Of a stretch of 36,451 bases of DNA, positions 4,569-36,451 are shown one piece after another (the stretch's first letter is position 1; every line of letters starts with the position of its first letter). The stretch lies in IMG/VR virus record IMGVR_UViG_3300048591_000380, positions 1-36,451 of that record; one strand, 5' to 3'. The position numbers and the translations under genes are program-made. The notes beneath the pieces were generated by a model. It was not told the origin of the DNA. It did not search any database and saw only the letters and a program-made list of their open reading frames with translations. This DNA comes from a virus.

Positions 4569-6320
4569 TTAACCGCCTCTCTTGGAACGCGCACCTTTGC
4601 GCCGATTCGCGCCGTCAATGACGCTCAAAACTTCACGGGCCGCCCGGCCCAGCATTCCGGCAGCATCCCGGGCATCCTTGACGCCGTTGAAGACCATGCC
4701 GCCAAGGTTGATGGAGCCGCCGCCATCCCCGCCGCCTGCTGCCTTGCGGACCTGGGCCATAGCGCGGGGGTCGTCCAAGGGGGCGACAATCTCGTTCTTC
4801 CTAAGCAGGGTCGGAATGGTGTCAAATTGGTCGTTGCCGCCCACCGTCACGCCGCCTTGATTCAGTCCAGCCGCCACAGCCTTGATACCGCCGCCAGCCG
4901 CCGCCAGGGACGCCCCGGCACCAAACAGCCCGGGAGCCGCAGGCGCATTGACAACTGAAATCAGCGCCGCAATGGCCTTGGCCGTGTAGGCCGCACCCTC
5001 TTGAATCAGCCCGTCACCAAGCGCCGAGACCGTGGACTTTAGGAATGCCCGCCCAAGTTGCTCCAGCGCCTGACTGCCCTGCATCGTGCCCTCTTTCAGG
5101 GCCGTGAAATAAGTCTGCATTTCGTTGGCCTGGACGTTCGCCATAGTGGAGCCGATGGCCTCAAACTTGGCCTCTTGCTCTTCCAATAGACGGTTGGCCT
5201 CGTCTAAGTTGCGCTGGTGTTGGTCGGCCTTTTCGTTCTCGGCCTTGGTGGCCCGTTCAATCATGGCATCGACCTGGGCCATGCCGTCGGCGATTTCGTC
5301 ACGGATGCGCTTTTCTTCGTCCAACGCTTTCAACTTGCGTTGTAGCTCCAGCCGAGCTTTCTTGTTCTCTTCGGTCTCGTTGCTGGCCGCGCTTAGGATT
5401 TCATCGCGCTTTGCTTTTTCCGCAGACAATGAAGCCAGGATTTTTTCTCGTTCGGTCAAAAGACGCTGACGCACTCCCTCGGACTTTGCAAATTGAAGGT
5501 CCGAATCAACTCTGGACAGCATTTTTTCATAGGCTTCTACCAGCCCTTCGGACTGTGCTAGTCCGTCGCCAAGTAGGCCGCTTAAATCCCTGGCAATTCC
5601 TTTGAAAAATCTGCTAAACCCGCTTGCGGCTGGGCCGAGTTTTTCCCCTATCGTCTCGCCGAGATTGCCCCAGGCATCATCAAGGCTCTTGGCCTCTTGC
5701 GCCGCCTTATCGGTAGCCTTGGCGGCCCCGCTGAACTTGGTCTCAATCTCCGTCAGCGTTTCGGCCAGCCCTTTGCCTTCTTTCTGGCTCAGGCCGAACT
5801 GCTTGTTGAGCTGCAACATGGCGCGCTCGTCACCGCTAAAAGCGCGCCCGAGCATGTCCGCAACAACGTTCAAATCCTTGCCTGTGGCCGTGGCAACGTC
5901 AGCCGCGATGTTGTTGAGCACCATCGCCTGGGTGAGGTCCTTGGTGAAGATGATAAGGCTGTTGGTCGAATCGACAGCCTGCTCCCCCGTGAACTTCGTC
6001 AAGGCCTCAAGCGACTTTCCGTAATTGTCAATTTTGCCGCGCAGGTCAACGGTGGTATCGCCAAAGCGGCGGGCATTGTTCTCCAATACCGTGATGCCTG
6101 CGCTGGCGATCAGAAAATCCTGGCGGCCCTTCTTCGCAAATTGAAAAAGCGCCGAGCCTGCCTTGGTCAGAATTGACCCAAGCCCAAAGCCCAGCGCTGT
6201 CTCAGCTACCTTGCGAAAATCAAGCGTGCTCTTCTTGGCCCCGTCAAGGCCAGACTTTAGGCCCGAGGCATCGGCAACAATTGGAACCGCGATTTCGCCT
6301 ACATTGACCGGCTCAGTCAT
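4569..6320 (-). CDS. Tail tape measure protein
   Basis: Sets tail length and is threaded through the tail tube before DNA ejection (family knowledge). The 583 residues begin with a short IAVPIVADASGLKSGLDGAKK segment typical of tape measure N-termini. Small-residue helical stretches follow, then a charged coiled-coil block at about 260-400 and a Gly/Ala-rich hydrophobic segment near 440-490. The C-terminus is basic (RRKGARSKRG). It follows directly after the G/GT chaperone genes, overlapping them by 8 bases, which is the conserved position. At roughly 0.15 nm per residue, 583 residues predict a tail near 90 nm; this figure is inference. The ATG has AGAGGG five bases upstream. Confidence 0.85.
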   Translation of the reverse strand: MTEPVNVGEIAVPIVADASGLKSGLDGAKKSTLDFRKVAETALGFGLGSILTKAGSALFQFAKKGRQDFLIASAGITVLENNARRFGDTTVDLRGKIDNYGKSLEALTKFTGEQAVDSTNSLIIFTKDLTQAMVLNNIAADVATATGKDLNVVADMLGRAFSGDERAMLQLNKQFGLSQKEGKGLAETLTEIETKFSGAAKATDKAAQEAKSLDDAWGNLGETIGEKLGPAASGFSRFFKGIARDLSGLLGDGLAQSEGLVEAYEKMLSRVDSDLQFAKSEGVRQRLLTEREKILASLSAEKAKRDEILSAASNETEENKKARLELQRKLKALDEEKRIRDEIADGMAQVDAMIERATKAENEKADQHQRNLDEANRLLEEQEAKFEAIGSTMANVQANEMQTYFTALKEGTMQGSQALEQLGRAFLKSTVSALGDGLIQEGAAYTAKAIAALISVVNAPAAPGLFGAGASLAAAGGGIKAVAAGLNQGGVTVGGNDQFDTIPTLLRKNEIVAPLDDPRAMAQVRKAAGGGDGGGSINLGGMVFNGVKDARDAAGMLGRAAREVLSVIDGANRRKGARSKRGG

Positions 6321-15394: not shown

Positions 15395-16904
15395 GAATCC
15401 ACCTCATGGTAGGCCGCCCGTGCCTGTCGAACTCGGTCACGCGGCGTGGGGATTTCAGATGCGAGTATAGCCTGCTTTTTTGGTCTGTCACCAACCTTGC
15501 TGGAAAACGGATCTTGCGGCCTCTGACGTTGGATGCGAACAGGTCAAGCGCCGCCGTTCGGTTGGCGTCTATCAGGTCGTCCTCTTTGTCGTTTGGGCGC
15601 CAGTCTGGCTGGCCTGGGGTGTCCGGCATAGAGTAGGAGCAGCGCCACCACTTCTGGCCCTTGGCCCGTTGTGTTTTGACGAAAGCCAAGGCCGACTTCA
15701 TTTCTGGCATGTAGTCCACCATCCCCCACTCGACGCCCGCCAGGTCAGCTAGCGCCCCCAACTCGGCGAAATCGTTGACCGTGCCGCTCCAGCAGCAAAC
15801 TAGCGTTCCGTCAGGCCATGGCTTTTCGTAAATCTGGACATCGTAGAGCGCGCCGGGGTCACAGACGATGAGCCCGCCCACGGCCCGCTGGCTCCAGATA
15901 GGTCCGGCATCGCTGGCCTTGATATCGCTGTCTGAAATTCCACCGTCCCGTTCGAGGAATGGTAAGCCGCGGTCCATGCGGACAGCTGTCGCTTTCTTAA
16001 TTTCGTTGGGGCTGTTCAGCTCTTCCTGCATTTCCTTGATGTTGCAGACGTGGGTCATGAGCCGATGCAGGTGGTAGCCCGGATGGTCGCCCTTTGGATT
16101 TGTGGGCTCCCACCAGCCGGCCGCCACGGCCTTCAAACGGTCAAAGCTCTTGTGGCACTTCGGGCATTCCGTGCGGAACAGTTTTTCGTTGATGTGGGTG
16201 TCCCAGTCCAGCGCCGCCTTCTTGCCACAATGCGGGCACTCGACGAACCAGCGGCGTTGGTCAGACCTCAGCCAGCGGGCATGGATGCCGAAGTCTGGTA
16301 CCGATGGGTTGGCAAGGTAGCGCTCAATGGGCTGGCCCGCAGTAGCCAGGCGCTTGCGGACCAGGGCTACGATGTTCTGGTCCATACGGTCCAGCTCGTC
16401 AAAGATTGCCACCTTGGCGTGGTAGCTGTAGCCCACGGACTCGCTGCCCATGCCTAAAAAATAGCCATGGGAGCGGCCTATCTTTTTGAGCTTAATGTTG
16501 TCCGTCTCGCCTTTGTTGATGGCCTGGAAATAAGGATTGTTCTTGAAGTTCGGGTTGACGCGCTCTTGCACAAGCAGACCCGTCTTGGTGTCGGATTCAA
16601 AGCCGTAGATGAAAGGGTAGCCCCAGGCCGCGTGCGCCAATGCCCAAGGAAAGAAGAACTCGGTCTTTCCGGTGCCGGCCCCGCTCATGACCGTCACTTC
16701 TTTGGCCCGCTGCAAGCCGATCTCGCGCAGGAATGGATAGTTGGTCAGGCGGTATGGCTGGCTGGGATCGCCGTTGATGGTCCAGCAACTTTCGGCCCAC
16801 AAAGGAGTATTGTAATTTTTTTTAGCTACCTCGGCAGTATAGAAGCGGCGGGCCAGTAGGGTGCGCTGGACTTGCGCGGCAAGTCGTTCTTGCGGGCTCA
16901 TCAT
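15276..16904 (-). CDS. Terminase large subunit, lambda gpA-like
   Basis: ATPase and nuclease that packages DNA into the prohead. In 542 residues: Walker A SGAGTGKT at 74-81; Walker B VAIFDE at 165-170; a four-Cys zinc ribbon C223/C226 and C247/C250 between the ATPase and nuclease parts; and a nuclease acidic motif LIVCDPG near 345-351. A C-terminal PDHQFHCGVYAS segment near 510 matches the gpA-type DHxxxAxxYA motif. The order is that of the GpA family rather than the T4 type. Translation is coupled to the small subunit through ATGATG at the junction. Confidence 0.92.
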   Translation of the reverse strand: MMSPQERLAAQVQRTLLARRFYTAEVAKKNYNTPLWAESCWTINGDPSQPYRLTNYPFLREIGLQRAKEVTVMSGAGTGKTEFFFPWALAHAAWGYPFIYGFESDTKTGLLVQERVNPNFKNNPYFQAINKGETDNIKLKKIGRSHGYFLGMGSESVGYSYHAKVAIFDELDRMDQNIVALVRKRLATAGQPIERYLANPSVPDFGIHARWLRSDQRRWFVECPHCGKKAALDWDTHINEKLFRTECPKCHKSFDRLKAVAAGWWEPTNPKGDHPGYHLHRLMTHVCNIKEMQEELNSPNEIKKATAVRMDRGLPFLERDGGISDSDIKASDAGPIWSQRAVGGLIVCDPGALYDVQIYEKPWPDGTLVCCWSGTVNDFAELGALADLAGVEWGMVDYMPEMKSALAFVKTQRAKGQKWWRCSYSMPDTPGQPDWRPNDKEDDLIDANRTAALDLFASNVRGRKIRFPARLVTDQKSRLYSHLKSPRRVTEFDRHGRPTMRWIHDPGKPDHQFHCGVYASILNEVRVQGFGRGGQGTATGGW

Positions 16905-17503
16905 TTGGGAGCCCCCGGCAAAGCAGGAGCCGCTACTGCATCCATGCCGCCAGCATCTTTAATCGCTTGGGCTAGCAACGCCTCTTGCTCCTGCACCTGC
17001 TTCAGCAATTCGTCCAGGGTGCCGCTGTCCATGAGCCCGCCCATCGGGTCTGGCCGGTCATCGCCCAAGACGCGAGCTTTGTCCTTTGCGCTCAGGCGGG
17101 CGTTGGTGCGGTCGCCTGCCTCGACGGAAAGCCTGTAGACGTGGTCGAAACGAGCCGAAGTCTCTTTGATGCGCTTGGCTTTGTCGGCCTCTTGCTGCTG
17201 CCAGACCTCGGCCTTGGCTGTAGCCCAGGCTCGATCGATCGTGATAGCAGAACAATCATAGCGCGCCTTGCACCACGCCTGAACTTCCCTCCGCTGGTAG
17301 CCACGCAGATAAAGCTGGATGCATTCATCCACCAAAGGGGGCAGGTGCTCGGTCGTTCCGTCTGGCTTCTTCCACTTCAAGCCGCCAGCCTCAATATCAA
17401 GTTCGGGTGCAGCAGGCCTGGGCTTCTTAGTTTTCCCGGCCTGTTTCACCATCTTAGGCTTGTTGCGTCTCCGAGGTTTGGCTCTCTTATCCGGTTTTAT
17501 CAT
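16901..17503 (-). CDS. Probable terminase small subunit
   Basis: A protein of 200 residues directly upstream of and overlapping the large subunit. A very basic N-terminus (about 16 Lys/Arg in the first 30) precedes a helix-turn-helix-like segment near 58-95 (LVDECIQLYLRGYQRREVQA, then TIDRAWATAKAEVW). A long helix follows, with a C-terminal coiled coil (LDELLKQVQEQEALLAQAIK). This matches small terminase proteins that recognise the packaging site and oligomerise. The DNA-binding site itself (cos or pac) is not identified. Confidence 0.7.
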   Translation of the reverse strand: MIKPDKRAKPRRRNKPKMVKQAGKTKKPRPAAPELDIEAGGLKWKKPDGTTEHLPPLVDECIQLYLRGYQRREVQAWCKARYDCSAITIDRAWATAKAEVWQQQEADKAKRIKETSARFDHVYRLSVEAGDRTNARLSAKDKARVLGDDRPDPMGGLMDSGTLDELLKQVQEQEALLAQAIKDAGGMDAVAAPALPGAPK

Positions 17504-17510
17504 GGTCGTT

Positions 17511-17711
17511 TCAGCGCTCGGAATGCTCGTTGTGTGGTTGGGCAGATTCTTTGAACTCCACTTTGTATCGAATGTCTACGGTCCCTATCACCTGCCCGTT
17601 CACCAGCAACTGGAGCTTTGGCCGAGTTACTTTTTGCCAGCGGCCTGCGTGGTCCTGTTGGGACACAGGCAAGCCGCTGGCGTCTAAGAGCTCGGCCCTG
17701 AGAATGTTCAC
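17511..17711 (-). CDS. Small unknown protein
   Basis: A protein of 66 residues, GTG start overlapping the upstream stop as GTGA, so coupled to that gene. The sequence alternates as in a beta domain (KLQLLVNGQVIGTVDIRYKV). No family recognised. It lies between an unknown gene and the small terminase in the packaging leader. A longer alternative frame (17500-17781) has poorer coding character and is rejected. Confidence 0.5.
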   Translation of the reverse strand: MNILRAELLDASGLPVSQQDHAGRWQKVTRPKLQLLVNGQVIGTVDIRYKVEFKESAQPHNEHSER

Positions 17712-27019: not shown

Positions 27020-28336
27020 CTATTCTTCCCGCGTGGCCTTTTCGAAGCGGCTGAACCTCTTGACAAATCGCAGTTCGGCCCGCCCTGTTGAACCCATGCG
27101 CCGCTTGGCACAGGTGACGATAATAAGGGGCTCGGGGTCTGCTATGGCGTCGGCATCGTCTGTCTGTATTAGGCCGATGATATGGGCGTCCTGCTCGATC
27201 TGGCCCGAACCGCGCAGGTCGCTGATACGTGGAGAACGGCGCTCCCCTTTTTCTCCCGAACGGTTGAGCTGAGCAGCGCAGACCACGGCAGGCCCGAGCT
27301 GCTGGGCGATAAGACGCAATCCAGAGCTGGCCTCGGCTATCTGCTGTTCCATCGTCTCGGCTTTCCCGTTGGGCTGGACTAATTGCAGGTAGTCCACTAG
27401 CACAACCTTTGTATGGTTCTTGCGGATGCTGGCCCGCACGCGGGCACGTAGTCGGCCAATCGCGAGGCCAGGGACATAAGAGGCCCGGAACGGCCACGCC
27501 CGCATCTGCTCCCATGCCCTCTTGGCGGCGTCCAGCTCCATCTTGTTCAAAGGACCTTCAATCAACTTCGTGGCGTCACACCCGCTATGCCAGGCCGCGG
27601 CTCGGGCGCGTAATTCGGTCATGTTCATTTCTAAACTTAACAGCAAAACCTCAACGCCCTGCTTGGCCAGCTCTAGGCCAAGGTGTAACAGTAAAGCGCT
27701 CTTGCCTTCGCCAGGACGGCCAGCAAGGACCACCATGCGGCCAGGGACAACGGGGCCAATAGTGGCGCACAGGTTTGCGGGCTCATATGTGAAGCCGCGT
27801 TGCTTGCCGATCACCAAATCCTGGAAATCCTGCTCTTCATCTGCCGTCACCTCGGCCAAGGCTTTTTCATCGGAGCCCTTGTCATCCCTGCTGGCAATGT
27901 GGTGCAGGGCTTCGGCGGCTTCGTCTAGGACGTTCAGGATGGATTCCTTGCGACTAGCGGCGGCGCTTGCAAGCTGCTGGCCAACGGCCTGCAAGCGCCG
28001 GGCGTCGGCATTCTCCAGGACGATGCGAACATAGGCCTCCACATTGCCGGCGGAGGCCACCTTTTCGGTGAGCCCGGCCAGGCCCGACGGGCCGCCCACG
28101 GATTCCAGCATGCTGCGGCTGGCCAGCCAGTCCTGCACGGTGACTAGATCCACCGGCCGGCTGCCCTTGTGCAGGTCGGCCACGGCCTGGTAGACCTTTT
28201 GGTGGGCGTTCTTGAAGAAATCGTCCGAACGCAGGGCGTCCAAAACTATGTCCAGGGCGTTAAGGTCCACCATACAGGCCCCAAGAACTGCGGCCTCGGA
28301 ATCGGTGTCGAACGGGACATTCTGAGTCTGACTCAT
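27020..28336 (-). CDS. DnaB-type replicative helicase
   Basis: A protein of 438 residues that would unwind DNA at the phage fork. The N-terminal DnaB domain spans about 8-105 (SEAAVLGACMVDLNALDIVL). The RecA-like core has Walker A GRPGEGKS at 206-213, Walker B VVLVDYLQL at 311-319, AAQLNR at 354-359 and SDLRGSGQIEQDAH at 372-385. Start: ATG at 28336 overlaps the initiator stop as ATGA; another ATG lies two codons upstream. The initiator–helicase pair means replication is initiated without a separate loader visible here. The gene ends in TAG. Confidence 0.92.
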   Translation of the reverse strand: MSQTQNVPFDTDSEAAVLGACMVDLNALDIVLDALRSDDFFKNAHQKVYQAVADLHKGSRPVDLVTVQDWLASRSMLESVGGPSGLAGLTEKVASAGNVEAYVRIVLENADARRLQAVGQQLASAAASRKESILNVLDEAAEALHHIASRDDKGSDEKALAEVTADEEQDFQDLVIGKQRGFTYEPANLCATIGPVVPGRMVVLAGRPGEGKSALLLHLGLELAKQGVEVLLLSLEMNMTELRARAAAWHSGCDATKLIEGPLNKMELDAAKRAWEQMRAWPFRASYVPGLAIGRLRARVRASIRKNHTKVVLVDYLQLVQPNGKAETMEQQIAEASSGLRLIAQQLGPAVVCAAQLNRSGEKGERRSPRISDLRGSGQIEQDAHIIGLIQTDDADAIADPEPLIIVTCAKRRMGSTGRAELRFVKRFSRFEKATREE

Positions 28337-29118
28337 TTCCATGTGACCACCCCGCAAGCCTTGCACTTGTGGGCCGCCGTGTCCCCACGCCGTTCTGTGA
28401 TCTCGCAATCCGTATGCCTGCATCCTCGCTTGCCTTGGGTGCCGCTCCCTTTGGACGCCCACTTGTTGAGCTGGGCCAGCATGAGGCTGAGCGTGAAACC
28501 AGCCTCGGCCACAAAGGCGTCCTTGCTGGACAGGTAGGCGCGGGCCGCAGGACGGAACCAGGCTTCGTCATAATCCTGAACGAGCTTCGCCTGCCCGGCA
28601 TCTTTTCCTGAAACCCTATAAGTGCTGCTTTTTAGGTTGGTGTGTTCTTCACAAAAAACCTTTATTAGTTTTGAAGGCGCTCCCGCGTTAGCGGTAGTCT
28701 TCTCTTCAGTCTGTCTCTTAGAGTCTGTACTAATAATATCCGCGCCAACTTGGCGTGATGTTTGCGCCAACTTGGCGTCATCATTTGCGCCAACATGGCG
28801 CGGATGTAAAGTGGCGCGGAAGTCACGAAAGCTCAGGTCTTCAAAGGCCAGTCCAAAGGTTGACGGCCTCCCATAGCCACGCTCCATGATGACCAAGCCC
28901 GACGCCTTGAGTGATGCCAAAGCCCGCTGGATGGTCCTACGTGGCATCTTAGGCAACGCCAAACAGAGCATATCCAAACCCGCTTCCTCGTCGGCGTCTT
29001 TGACCCAATGAATGGCCTGGATCGCGGCCACCACCATAAATTCGTTGGGGTCGCAGGCCCAAAAGGCCCGCATGTTCACGGGCACCGAGGGGCTTGTGAT
29101 TTTATTTTCCCGCTTCAT
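28333..29118 (-). CDS. Replication initiator-like protein (lambda O-like role)
   Basis: A protein of 261 residues. The N-terminal winged-helix-type domain (VPVNMRAFWACDPNEFMVVA, LPKMPRRTIQRALASLKASG) would bind DNA. A linker lies over the iterons, then a helical part, then a C-terminal zinc motif (CRHTDCE…HKCKACG). Gene order initiator, helicase and iterons inside the gene match lambda O/P-like replication modules. ATG at 29118 has GGAG nine bases upstream; a TTG five codons earlier is possible. The role is inferred from context and the HTH pattern. Confidence 0.75.
   Translation of the reverse strand: MKRENKITSPSVPVNMRAFWACDPNEFMVVAAIQAIHWVKDADEEAGLDMLCLALPKMPRRTIQRALASLKASGLVIMERGYGRPSTFGLAFEDLSFRDFRATLHPRHVGANDDAKLAQTSRQVGADIISTDSKRQTEEKTTANAGAPSKLIKVFCEEHTNLKSSTYRVSGKDAGQAKLVQDYDEAWFRPAARAYLSSKDAFVAEAGFTLSLMLAQLNKWASKGSGTQGKRGCRHTDCEITERRGDTAAHKCKACGVVTWK
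28742..28800. repeat. Three palindromic iterons, probable phage origin
   Basis: GCGCCAACTTGGCG at 28742-28755 and 28764-28777, and GCGCCAACATGGCG at 28787-28800. Each is a 6-base-arm inverted repeat with a one-base centre. Spacing is 22 and 23 bases, about two helix turns, so copies lie on one DNA face. The middle copy is read in a different frame from the others. A visibly more AT-rich stretch, about 28610-28740, lies beside them as a possible unwinding element. Confidence 0.75.
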
Positions 29119-29131
29119 CAAGGTCTGCTCC

Positions 29132-29239
29132 AAAAAAAACCCGCTGACAGGGTGGACTAGGGCTGGGAAGCCCTAGCATCGGGTCTAGGGGTCGCGTCCT
29201 AAAACGCGACTTCCCTAGTCCACCTTGCCAGCGGGGTTT
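29132..29239 (-). terminator. Large folded leader ending in T8: terminator/attenuator
   Basis: Minus strand: bases 29239-29213 pair with 29162-29137 over about 25 bp with one mismatch and one bulge, including a perfect 12-bp part (GGTGGACTAGGG/CCCTAGTCCACC), and are followed at once by T8 (29139-29132). Inside are GTCGCGT/ACGCGAC (29191-29210) and CTAGGGCT-ggga-AGCCCTAG (29157-29176), which competes for the outer arm. The T8 directly precedes the GGAG of the initiator gene. It fits a terminator or a regulated attenuator of replication genes. Confidence 0.65.
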
Positions 29240-29292
29240 GCTGGCCCGATATCCCGCACTTCCCAATGCGGCTGAATTTCAAAAAGATTTTA

Positions 29293-29529
29293 CTAGCCCA
29301 TCCGCCCCTTCGTCAAGCCCTCCAAACGCATCTTGCCCAGCTCGGTCAAGGACAAGGCCTGAGCCTTACCGCCTTCGGAGCGGACCAAGCCAGCCCCCTT
29401 CTACCGCTTCACGCGATCCTGAACGCTGCCGAGATTGATGCACAGCTCTGCCGCCATTTCGCGCAGGGTCGGACGTGGGGCCAAGCGCATCATCTGCATC
29501 ATGAGGATGTATTTCCCGTCCAGGTCCAT
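29293..29529 (-). pseudogene. Winged-helix HTH gene with one in-frame amber codon
   Basis: ATG at 29529 (TGATG overlap with the upstream gene) begins MDLDGKYILMMQMMRLAPRP, then a helix-turn-helix LREMAAELCINLGSVQDRVK and R. TAG follows at 29403-29401. The same frame continues with KGAGLVRSEGGKAQALSLTE, LGKMRLEGL and ends in TAG at 29293. Joined, the two parts read as one winged helix, recognition helix plus wing (RVKR-x-KGAGLVRSEGG). A hydrophobic residue, probably Leu, is expected at the stop. Either a recent nonsense mutation, or readthrough yielding short and long forms. Confidence 0.65.
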
Positions 29530-29909
29530 CAATGCCCTCCACCGTCCAGCAGCTTCAAGTGCTGCGCCACCTTCATGCTCCTGCTGTAGAGAGCCTTGCA
29601 AAGCCCGCGCGTGTTCTCGCGGAGCTTTAATTCAGTAGCGCAGTAGGTCTTAGCCGCTTCCAGCGCTACGCCTTTGCTGAAGCCGAGATTAAGCAAGCGG
29701 TCGAACTCCCGGCGCTTGGCGTCGTAGTAGTAGGCCTCGGCATCGGCTCGCGCCACTTCTGCGTCGAACAGGATGGGCTCGATCTGCTGGGCATCCAGTT
29801 GAAGCGGCCCGATTTCCGAGCCCAGGTCTTTCTGGCAGATGGCGGCCGCCCGGCTCCACAATTCACGGTAGCCGGACAGCCATTGCTCGAAGGTCTTGGG
29901 CGTTTTCAC
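29529..29909 (-). CDS. Unknown helical protein
   Basis: A protein of 126 residues, mainly helical (FEQWLSGYRELWSRAAAICQ, ADAEAYYYDAKRREFDRLLN). No family recognised. It overlaps the coiled-coil gene by 4 bases and the interrupted winged-helix gene by TGATG, so all three appear to be one translated block. Confidence 0.6.
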   Translation of the reverse strand: MKTPKTFEQWLSGYRELWSRAAAICQKDLGSEIGPLQLDAQQIEPILFDAEVARADAEAYYYDAKRREFDRLLNLGFSKGVALEAAKTYCATELKLRENTRGLCKALYSRSMKVAQHLKLLDGGGH

Positions 29910-30829
29910 CGCCCGGACCCCGTCAGCAACTCAGCGATCTGGAAGGCCTTGACCCCGGGCGTGGCCAGCGTCACCACGCCGTCCAGGATGTGGCGCTTGA
30001 GCAGGGTTTCATTGGCCGTCAGGTAGGCCGGCGGCAGCGCGGCCACGTCGTAAGCCAGGCCGTCCACCACTCGCTTGGTCTTGAGGCCCTTAGTGGGGGC
30101 GGGCGCGGCCATGACCACCGGGGCGGGCGCGGTCATGACCACCGGGGCCAAGGACTGCCGCTGGGCTTCGTCGGCTTCGCGCTGGGCCTGTTCGGCTTCG
30201 AGCCGCGCCGCTTCAGCCTTGCGGTCCAGCTCTGCCGCTTCTTCCAGGGCCTTTGCATTCGCCGTCACGTCCGCCGCCTTCTTGTTGCCCTTCAAGATTG
30301 CCTCGGCTGCCAAGCGCTCCCGCTCCTGCGCTTCCCACGCCAAGCGTTCCTGTTCGCGACGCAGGGCTTCGGCTTTGGCCGCCGCTTCCGCCGCCACCTT
30401 CTCGCGGGCCTGCCTCTCGGCCTCGGCCTTTTGGCGGGCCTCCTCCTCCAGGCGGCGCTGTTCAGCCAAGATGCGCTGGCGCTTGGCTTCCTGCTGCTCC
30501 TGATAGAGCTTGATCTTCGGTGCCAGGATTTCGTGCGCGTCCAGGATGTTCTGTTCAAGGGGGCCCGCGCTGTCGCTGATGGCCTTGGCGAAGGCCAGGA
30601 CCGGACGGCGGGCCTCGGTGACGGCATCACCCAGCACGGTCTTGCTCTTGGTGAGGCTGTTCAGGCACTCCCGGCTGGCCGCGTAGCTGTCATCGTCCAG
30701 CACTTCCAGCGTGACGGCCCGGCGCACAGCGTTGATGATGAAGTCCCGCGTGGTCGGGCTGATGACCGTGATGACCTGAAGCAGGTCGGCGGGGGGCATG
30801 ACGGACAGGGCTTGCTCTTGTGTCTGCAT
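29906..30829 (-). CDS. Large coiled-coil protein between RecT-like and replication genes
   Basis: A protein of 307 residues. An N-terminal helical domain (ISPTTRDFIINAVRRAVTLE) precedes a long Ala/Glu/Arg coiled coil at about 85-215 (LAEQRRLEEEARQKAEAERQ). A duplicated Pro/Val linker APAPVVM, coded by a 24-bp tandem duplication near 30096-30143, leads into a C-terminal domain of about 60 residues (AYDVAALPPAYLTANETLLK). Such coiled-coil proteins often accompany phage recombinases, sometimes as a nuclease partner, but no nuclease motif is seen. Function unknown. Confidence 0.65.
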   Translation of the reverse strand: MQTQEQALSVMPPADLLQVITVISPTTRDFIINAVRRAVTLEVLDDDSYAASRECLNSLTKSKTVLGDAVTEARRPVLAFAKAISDSAGPLEQNILDAHEILAPKIKLYQEQQEAKRQRILAEQRRLEEEARQKAEAERQAREKVAAEAAAKAEALRREQERLAWEAQERERLAAEAILKGNKKAADVTANAKALEEAAELDRKAEAARLEAEQAQREADEAQRQSLAPVVMTAPAPVVMAAPAPTKGLKTKRVVDGLAYDVAALPPAYLTANETLLKRHILDGVVTLATPGVKAFQIAELLTGSGR

Positions 30830-34356: not shown

Positions 34357-34779
34357 CTAGCGGACCTCCGCTTTGGCGATGATGGCGCGGGCTCGCGGTA
34401 AGGCGGGATGGCCCTTGTCCATATAATCGAGCCCCGTCATGACCCGCTTCAACGCATCCAGCATTTCAGGCGCGGCGGCGATTAGGGCGGCGTTGGCGGC
34501 GGCTTCGCCGGGATTGTCGATGCTCTGGACAAAGCAGATGCGGTGGGGGCCGTCAACATCTTCCCCATAGGTCCAGACTTCCAAAGGCAGATTGGGGTTA
34601 TTGGTCCAGCGCCCTTTCGTGTGCTTCGCTTCGTTGCTCATGGCCTCCTCTGACGGTATGAAAACTCCGCATCCGCAAAGACTGTCATCCTCTCTTTCAT
34701 CCATGTAGCAGATGCCCAAGCATCCCATGACTCCGTGGTCGTCCCTGCTGTGGCCGCACGTGCAAAGCTCGTTGCTCAT
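34357..34779 (-). CDS. Small Cys-rich protein with AANAALIAAAPEML domain
   Basis: A protein of 140 residues. The N-terminus has many Cys and His (LCTCGHSRDDHGVMGCLGIC, SLCGCGVFI), probably zinc-binding. The second half contains KGRWTNNPNLPLEVW and the conserved phage segment EAAANAALIAAAPEMLDALK. That segment occurs in many accessory phage proteins of unknown function. AGAGGTG precedes the ATG. Confidence 0.6.
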   Translation of the reverse strand: MSNELCTCGHSRDDHGVMGCLGICYMDEREDDSLCGCGVFIPSEEAMSNEAKHTKGRWTNNPNLPLEVWTYGEDVDGPHRICFVQSIDNPGEAAANAALIAAAPEMLDALKRVMTGLDYMDKGHPALPRARAIIAKAEVR

Positions 34780-35582
34780 TCCGTCACCTCTTTAGGCTTG
34801 TGGTTTTCGTCCAGCCGATAGGGCTTGTTCGGCTTGATTCCGTCCTCGCCCACATAGGCGATAACAACGCGGGTCCGCTTGCCGTCCCAGTATGAGAATT
34901 GAAGCACAGCGGAGTAGCCGCCCGTCATCGTGGCGGAGTAGCCGCCCGTCATCTTGGCGAAGTCGCCGCCCGTCATCGTGGCGTAGTCGCCGCCTGTCAT
35001 CGTGGCGGAGTAGCCGCCCGTCATCGTGGCGTAGTCGCCGCCTGTCATCGTGGCGGAGTAGCCGCCCGTCATCGTGGCGAAGTTGCCGCCTGTCATCGTG
35101 GCGGAGTAGCCGCCCGTCATCGTGGCGTAGTTGCCGCCCGTCATCGTGGCGAAGTCGCCGCCTGTCATCTTGGCGGAGTAGCCGCCTGTCATCTTGGCGG
35201 AGTAGCCGCCCGTGGCAATCAGGCCTTCCACCACGGCTCGGGGATTGGCAAGCGCGATTAACTGCGTGGCGTTCTCGCGGGTGCCAGCATAAACCACTTC
35301 GCATGACGGAAATTTAACCTTGCGACCAAGGTCCACACAGTCAGACAGCTTCACTTTGCAGACCATCCAGACGGCCTTTTCATCGTAGGACATGAGCGAC
35401 CCGTCACCTTCGCCCCAAAGCAGGCCGTGAAGGCCGTTGCCGCACTCTTTGGACGGCGACCAATCTGGCGCTTTGACCTTCCCCTTGGACGGCCACTTAA
35501 AGCCGCCGTGCGCTGTCATGTCGGCGTTGCAGGTCCGCAAGACTAGCGCCTCGCCTTTCTTCAGCTTGATATCGTTGCTCAT
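34776..35582 (-). CDS. DUF7666-like protein with 13 octapeptide repeats
   Basis: A protein of 268 residues. Residues about 8-115 are a domain starting GEALVLRTCNADMTAHGGFK with APDWSPSKECGNGLHGLLWG. A run of 13 octapeptides (pattern TGGYSATM, variants TGGDFATM and TGGNYATM) then covers roughly residues 123-226. A closing beta segment follows (VLQFSYWDGKRTRVVIAYVG). The repeats likely form an elongated solenoid. The domain recurs in the next gene upstream, where the repeats stand before it instead. Function unknown. AAGGGAG precedes the ATG. Confidence 0.65.
   Translation of the reverse strand: MSNDIKLKKGEALVLRTCNADMTAHGGFKWPSKGKVKAPDWSPSKECGNGLHGLLWGEGDGSLMSYDEKAVWMVCKVKLSDCVDLGRKVKFPSCEVVYAGTRENATQLIALANPRAVVEGLIATGGYSAKMTGGYSAKMTGGDFATMTGGNYATMTGGYSATMTGGNFATMTGGYSATMTGGDYATMTGGYSATMTGGDYATMTGGDFAKMTGGYSATMTGGYSAVLQFSYWDGKRTRVVIAYVGEDGIKPNKPYRLDENHKPKEVTE
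34903..35214. repeat. 24-bp coding tandem repeat, 13 units
   Basis: Tandem 24-bp units of the type GTAGCCGCCCGTCATCGTGG plus four bases, with changes mainly at two or three positions. All stay in frame, so each adds eight residues to the encoded protein. High similarity suggests recent expansion and probable length variation between related phages. Confidence 0.85.
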
Positions 35583-35585
35583 GGT

Positions 35586-36451
35586 CTAGGCTCCCTTCTT
35601 GAGTTCGCGCCCGATGCTGTCGCACTCGTAAAGAACGGTGCCTTTGCGGAACGCCACTTTGTGCGGATAGCTGCGATTACCGGGCCAGACGAACAAGTCC
35701 TTGACTGCCACGCTCAAGGCGATGTAGCGGTCCCCCACGGTGTCGCGGAATTCGTCACAGAACCGAGCCTGTGAGCAGGCGTGAAACTTTCCGCGTCCGC
35801 ATTCTTCGCCCTTGGGGTCGTAGTTGGCGTGTTCCAGCGTCAGCCCCGGCGTCCAAGCTGTTTCGTTCTCGCTGCCTTCTTGCGTCTTGAAATCCTTTGA
35901 AACGCGCTTGAAAACGATGACGTTGCCGCGCTTGACTTCGACACCTTCCTCTGACAGCCAGTCCTTGGCATTGCGGGACTGCTTGGGCTTGATGATGGTC
36001 GCCGTCTTGGCCTTCTTGATGGCCTTGGCAGTCACAGCCATGAGCAACGCCACGGCGAAGCCGAACAGGTCAACCGTGGCGCTGTCCGAAGCGTGGACCG
36101 TGGCGCTGCCCCAAGCGCGGACCGTGGCGCTGCCCGAAGCGTGGACCGTGGCGCTGCCCGAAGCGCGGACCGTGGCGCTGCCCGAAGCGCGGACCGTGGC
36201 GCTGTCCGAAGCGTGGACCGTGGCGCTGCCCGAAGCGCGGACCGTGGCGCTGCCCGAAGCGAGGACCGTGGCGCTGCCCGAAGCGCGGACCGTGGCGCTG
36301 CCCCAAGCGCGGACCGTGGCGCTGCCCGAAGCGCGGACCGTGGCGCTGTCCGAAGCGCGGACCGTGGCGCTGCCCGAAGCGCGGACCGTGGCGCTGTCCG
36401 AAGCGTGGACCGTGGCGCTGCCCGAAGCGCGGACCGTGGCGCTGCCCGAAG
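35586..36451 (-). CDS. DUF7666-like protein with N-terminal octapeptide repeats (5' end outside window)
   Basis: The reading frame is open from the stop at 35586 to the window edge, at least 288 codons. The visible N-terminal part is about 16 octapeptides of type SATVRASG (variants SATVHASD, SATVRAWG, SATVLASG). Then comes a hydrophobic turn VDLFGFAVALLMAVTAKAIK, a basic linker and a domain of about 110 residues (GNVIVFKRVSKDFKTQ, WTPGLTLEHANYD, GRGKFHACSQARFCDEF). An ATG at 36053 would give a 155-residue protein without repeats, but the frame clearly continues upstream. The domain is a distant relative of the one in the downstream gene. The hydrophobic turn could be a membrane segment. Confidence 0.65.
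   Translation of the reverse strand, partial: SGSATVRASGSATVHASDSATVRASGSATVRASDSATVRASGSATVRAWGSATVRASGSATVLASGSATVRASGSATVHASDSATVRASGSATVRASGSATVHASGSATVRAWGSATVHASDSATVDLFGFAVALLMAVTAKAIKKAKTATIIKPKQSRNAKDWLSEEGVEVKRGNVIVFKRVSKDFKTQEGSENETAWTPGLTLEHANYDPKGEECGRGKFHACSQARFCDEFRDTVGDRYIALSVAVKDLFVWPGNRSYPHKVAFRKGTVLYECDSIGRELKKGA
36073..36451. repeat. 24-bp coding tandem repeat, 15 full units and a partial one
   Basis: Unit ACCGTGGCGCTGCCCGAAGC plus GCGG, 24 bases, repeated without gaps to the window edge. Variation is confined to a few positions (tccg/cccc/cccg; gcgtgg/gcgcgg/gcgagg). The minus-strand frame gives SATVRASG octapeptides. The array extends beyond the window, so its full length is unknown. 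Confidence 0.9.

Follow-up and report, generated by a model that had tools for sequence, protein, structure and literature searches.

A bistable terminator-like stem in the leader of a putative phage replication initiator gene, a candidate transcription attenuator

The window analysed here is the whole of a 36,451-nt viral record (IMGVR_UViG_3300048591_000380), in which every recognised gene lies on the minus strand. The element described below separates two co-directional blocks, with recombination genes upstream and replication genes downstream. Read 5' to 3' on the minus strand, the leader contains a promoter-like site, a small hairpin (29271-29254, predicted fold), the hexamer GCCAGC, an interrupted stem, a run of eight T residues (T8), a Shine-Dalgarno (SD) sequence and the ATG of a putative replication initiator gene. 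Directly upstream of the element lies a small winged-HTH-like frame (29529-29290, minus strand), which overlaps the stop of the preceding gene (TGATG) and carries an in-frame TAG at codon 43 (29403-29401). This frame gave a weak match to HTH_24 (E 0.14). The TAG may have arisen by nonsense mutation or through an error in sequencing, and TAG is used as the stop in 9 of the 36 other frames listed for the record. Elsewhere in the window, the minus-strand frames 34776-35582 and 36070-36306 are built of repeats (TGGYSATM-like and GQRHGPRF repeats).

The putative initiator gene (28333-29115, minus strand) encodes 260 amino acids from the ATG at 29115, with a TTG at 29118 as another possible start. 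No significant family match was obtained for it; its best PHROG matches were sub-threshold (replication initiation, E 0.07; O-like, E 0.10), and Pfam helix-turn-helix matches appeared only at E 0.12 and above. Modelling its structure from the single sequence gave a pLDDT of 39, too low to permit a fold search. The C-terminal part of the protein (28333-28420, minus strand) contains paired cysteines (CRHTDC, CKACG) in a zinc-ribbon-like arrangement and was the sole region of the model with good confidence. Directly downstream, in an overlapping open frame with its real start inside (27020-28462, minus strand), lies a DnaB-like replicative helicase, recognised by PF03796 (E 3e-51) and PHROG 19 (E 1e-75).

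Inside the initiator gene, we found three palindromic 18-bp iteron-like repeats (28742-28804; starts at 28742, 28764 and 28787, 22 and 23 bp apart). Beside them is an A+T-rich stretch (28617-28736), a possible unwinding region, with an A+T content of 60% compared to 39% for the record, which places it in the top 0.08% of the record's 120-bp windows. The iterons and the A+T-rich stretch together are a probable replication origin of the phage. Because palindromic iterons inside the initiator gene and an adjacent A+T-rich region reproduce the layout of a lambda-O type origin, and because DnaB is encoded next, the frame at 29115-28333 is likely to encode an O-like initiator.

Immediately before this gene, the minus-strand sequence can form an interrupted stem of 22 bp, in which a 5' arm (29235-29213) pairs with a 3' arm (29162-29140) and encloses two further hairpins; both arms were recovered from the inverted repeat and from the folds. 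The 3' arm leads straight into T8 (A8 on the plus strand, 29132-29139), the predicted termination site, which lies 16 nt before the ATG and is directly followed by the SD sequence GGAG (29131-29128). The arrangement, a G+C-rich stem with a T tract right behind it, is that of an intrinsic (Rho-independent) terminator. The first-pass annotation had described a long stem ending in a T8 that abuts the ribosome site of the initiator; this description is borne out, and the feature proved stronger than stated there and belongs to the minus strand, which had been left unspecified. T8 is the sole run of at least seven T on the minus (coding) strand of the 36-kb record, and, judged from the sequence, canonical terminators seem otherwise scarce on that strand of the phage.

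The minus-strand RNA of the element was predicted to fold at -68.5 kcal/mol (z = -7.45), and 0 of 200 shuffled sequences were equally stable. When the minus strand was scanned in 15-nt steps, the element was the most stable 110-nt segment of the record. With the search settings applied, eight inverted repeats were detected in the record, and that of the element (27-nt arms, 89%, 50-nt spacer) ranked first, as the best short-range one. A second long imperfect inverted repeat (17620-17697; 32-nt arms, 72%, 14-nt spacer) lies just upstream of ORF 16901-17503, which precedes the terminase gene. A survey under one rule of about 1 Mb in 83 sequences, this record included, revealed 98 terminator-like sites, of which just two had a start codon with an SD sequence directly behind them, a rare position: the present site, with 22 pairs and -64 kcal/mol, and another with 8 pairs. 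No Rfam family matched any part of the record at the gathering score, and the sub-threshold matches on the element (mir-3165, parechovirus CRE, PyrR) were judged to be chance. The two leading G of the SD sequence are mostly paired in the predicted fold of the read-through transcript, so a second, translational layer of control is possible.

The promoter-like site TTGACG-18-TAAAAT (29316-29287, minus strand) lies 35 nt upstream of the element, with a start predicted near 29280. It was detected with a sigma70 weight matrix and a consensus scan and is the best sigma70 matrix match of the record on both strands, under promoter and SD models that were borrowed from E. coli with approximate weights and may not fit the host of the phage. 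The best minus-strand match just downstream of the element (29127-29099) scored far below it and would start transcription inside the initiator gene, after the start codon. Since T8 touches the SD sequence, no promoter could fit between the two, and the initiator mRNA therefore probably must read through T8. The read-through transcripts would probably come from the promoter at 29316 or from upstream genes. No convincing antisense promoter across the leader was found in the sigma70 matrix scan of the record; the best plus-strand match over the region (29075-29105, 19-nt spacer) was weak and ranked 41st in the record. The record's best inverted repeat, its only such T-run and its best promoter-like match lie within 185 bp in functional order. 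Any one of them could be luck; all three together are, in our judgement, hard to ascribe to chance.

The four CTAGGG/CCCTAG modules named in the first-pass annotation are all present, with CTAGGG at 29157-29162 (module 1) and 29185-29190 (module 3) and CCCTAG at 29171-29176 (module 2) and 29213-29218 (module 4); the whole record contains eight such hexamers. Module 4 is part of the 5' arm of the terminator stem and module 1 of the 3' arm. The folds also revealed two local hairpins as alternatives to the long stem, one formed by modules 4 and 3 (29218-29185, minus strand) and enclosing an 8-bp GTCGCGTT hairpin, the other a 9-bp hairpin formed by modules 2 and 1 (29177-29156, minus strand). Pairing of 1 with 4 and 2 with 3 gave -65.3 kcal/mol and pairing of 1 with 2 and 3 with 4 gave -64.2 kcal/mol, a gap of 1.1 kcal/mol. 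After 2000 shuffles of the 50-nt loop, a gap as small was reached in 1 of 2000 and an alternative as stable in 0 of 2000. Bistability of the module pairings is a real property of this sequence.

These results uphold part of the earlier proposal, in which modules 1-2 and 3-4, or else 1-4, would pair. The alternative pairings exceed chance, but the 2-3 pairing and the outer stem kept in both conformers had been overlooked. Ten bp next to T8 and five more are kept in both module folds. Because the base of the terminator stays closed in both, the CTAGGG swap alone is not the switch. The attenuator reading that went with the proposal is the best supported one, given the promoter, the terminator before the SD sequence and the O-like layout, but the envisaged exchange between 1-2/3-4 and 1-4 leaves the stem base closed in the equilibrium fold. 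An RNA antitermination site had been named as another option, and nothing in favour of such a put-like site was found.

A better switch candidate than the module swap, with modest support, is the segment GCCAGC (29245-29240, minus strand), which can pair with 29232-29227 at the base of the 5' arm and may act as a pre-emptor (anti-terminator). This pairing appears in transcript prefixes before the 3' arm has been made. It comprises only 6 bp, and shuffling the upstream sequence 1000 times produced 26 competitors as good. The trapped fold, in which the segment is combined with the local hairpins 4-3 and 2-1, was computed at -66.6 kcal/mol versus -75.8 kcal/mol for the terminator fold, and the barrier was estimated at about 7-10 kcal/mol; a barrier of 35 kcal/mol computed for a start at 29340 was not trusted. 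In a small co-transcriptional kinetic model, a slow rate constant gave 13-30% terminator closure at 50 ms and one ten times faster gave 69-94%; shortening the pre-emptor produced no consistent change in closure. The modelled kinetics would permit a choice, without proving one or establishing a role for the pre-emptor.

With the queries used, IMG/VR, GTDB genomes and INPHARED yielded no relative near enough for its leader to be compared. IMG/VR was searched with the proteins of the initiator, DnaB, ORF 29909-30829, the terminase, the portal and ORF 29532-29909, and GTDB genomes with the terminase and the initiator. These protein searches yielded one DnaB with 29% identity (L005) and one partial match of 51 residues (L004), neither of them usable. 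A RecT query returned 80 distant loci; none of the 50 RecT-matched records searched contained the terminase or the initiator, and the leader was absent from all of the RecT loci that were compared. The terminator arms, used as a DNA pattern, had no match in IMG/VR contigs, and INPHARED gave no match to the initiator, the initiator region or one further protein, apart from one insignificant initiator match (E 0.3).

We also surveyed 17 other phages with DnaB, at 19 start sites of initiator or helicase genes, and a comparable inverted repeat was present in one phage only (L057). Its arms are 20 nt long with a 49-nt spacer, and it lies 42 nt before an O-like gene containing three palindromic repeats with a spacing of 22/23 bp, the same as here (L057 5980-6215, minus strand, and 5558-5622); the DnaB of this phage is 25% identical. 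In L057 the SD region AAAGGTGAAC resembles the 5' arm of the repeat and is a possible pairing partner of its 3' arm. The repeat was not counted as the same element, being without a T-run and having a fold that is not bistable. The L057 repeat may be a parallel, translational version or a coincidence.

Taken as a whole, the locus suggests that transcription of the replication initiator gene of this phage is attenuated within the gene's own leader, a reading drawn from sequence to which we assign a probability of roughly 0.5. From the sequence elements and the predicted folds we infer promoter activity, termination, read-through and any trigger, in the following scheme. RNA polymerase would start near 29280 and transcribe a leader about 149 nt long. 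Closure of the large hairpin (29235-29140) would end transcription at T8, so that a short non-coding RNA is made and the initiator is not. Should 29245-29240 instead hold the 5' arm while the hairpins 4-3 and 2-1 persist for long enough, polymerase would arrive at T8 with the stem still open, and transcription would continue through the initiator gene, DnaB and the origin region. The choice might be triggered by an antisense RNA, a protein or polymerase speed, or might amount to a fixed read-through fraction.

A strong terminator between two co-directional gene blocks, and one that stays closed in both module pairings, could also be a plain insulator between the recombination and replication genes, its own RNA containing no switch. 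Transcription would then reach the replication genes by constant partial read-through or by an antitermination system acting elsewhere, like N/nut or put, which are antitermination systems of lambdoid phages. We regard this explanation as rather unlikely: the best promoter match of the record sits between the upstream genes and the terminator, where an insulator would not need one, the bistable interior exceeds chance, and no antitermination gene was recognised in the record. Promoter-like site and terminator do form a complete unit, and its very stable fold could belong to a small regulatory RNA, the terminated product of about 149 nt being the main one and acting in trans while the initiator is made from leftover read-through. 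This is improbable in our judgement, since the RNA reaches the gathering score of no Rfam family and offers little unpaired sequence for target pairing, and since the initiator has no other promoter.

The repeat might also act as DNA, in a protein-binding array or a cruciform near the origin, with the RNA fold as a by-product. Such a role would fit the four CTAGGG half-sites in alternating orientation and the position of the record's best inverted repeat about 330 bp from the iterons, as well as the comparable repeat, lacking a T-run, before the iteron-bearing O-like gene of the distant phage L057. We nevertheless consider it very unlikely, because no comparable repeat precedes the initiator or helicase genes of the 16 further phages and because the only coding-strand run of at least seven T lies exactly at the stem end before the SD sequence, pointing to RNA.

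Accounts of how lambda-like phages enter replication are usually given in terms of promoters, repressors and the antitermination of long early transcripts. Placed at the ribosome site of the initiator, as the attenuator reading supposes, a terminator would put the replication choice into a single short leader RNA. Efficient initiation in lambda itself requires that the origin be transcribed (PMC3985674), and such a gate could therefore control both initiator supply and origin activation. The fuller proposal, a phage with a plasmid-style attenuator whose nested bistable terminator forms a single gate for initiator synthesis and transcription through the origin, is tentative and to us somewhat doubtful. 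If true, it would link plasmid copy-number control with phage replication control. Attenuator logic is already known from plasmids, and what may be new is its use in a phage with a nested bistable terminator; a limited literature search revealed no phage example of a terminator at an initiator start with a competing segment, which is weak evidence of novelty.

In the lambda origin, an A+T-rich part lies beside the iterons. The iterons are inside the O gene (PMC3985674), and the present locus resembles the lambda/P22 O region in its O-like gene with internal iterons, the helicase function encoded next and a hairpin close to the upstream end of O. The oop RNA of lambda is antisense to cII (PMC3985674), and the terminators annotated close to the start of O in the P22-like phage L have the opposite orientation. 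In the present locus, the T tract runs in the sense direction and abuts the SD sequence. The put RNA of HK022 is, like the present element, a structured phage RNA of adjacent hairpins connected with termination, but put, a cis-acting RNA of two stem-loops, makes polymerase resistant to terminators that lie farther along the transcript and does not itself terminate (PMC9378689), whereas the element here ends in its own T8.

The closer parallels appear to be with the plasmids pT181 and pIP501, and they concern attenuation logic; we claim neither family membership nor sequence similarity. In both plasmids an antisense RNA drives termination (PMC5703833). The similar pIP501 repR attenuator, with CopR (PMC5703833, PMC4981023), shares with our locus a leader, an inverted repeat and a T tract just before the initiator start, and a small HTH protein gene upstream; the HTH-like frame here differs in having an in-frame stop, running in the same direction and having no known role. 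As described in PMC5703833, the pT181 repC attenuator of staphylococcal plasmids (Novick 1989) has a terminator-like stem immediately before the initiator start codon and, farther upstream, a pre-emptor able to base-pair with the terminator's 5' arm; antisense RNA triggers termination. Our locus differs from pT181, a rolling-circle plasmid, in belonging to a phage with an O-like, iteron-type origin, in lacking a convincing antisense promoter and in a terminator that holds two more hairpins sharing one stem sequence. It resembles pT181 in the terminator placed right before the initiator start and, as a candidate, in the upstream segment that competes for the 5' arm.
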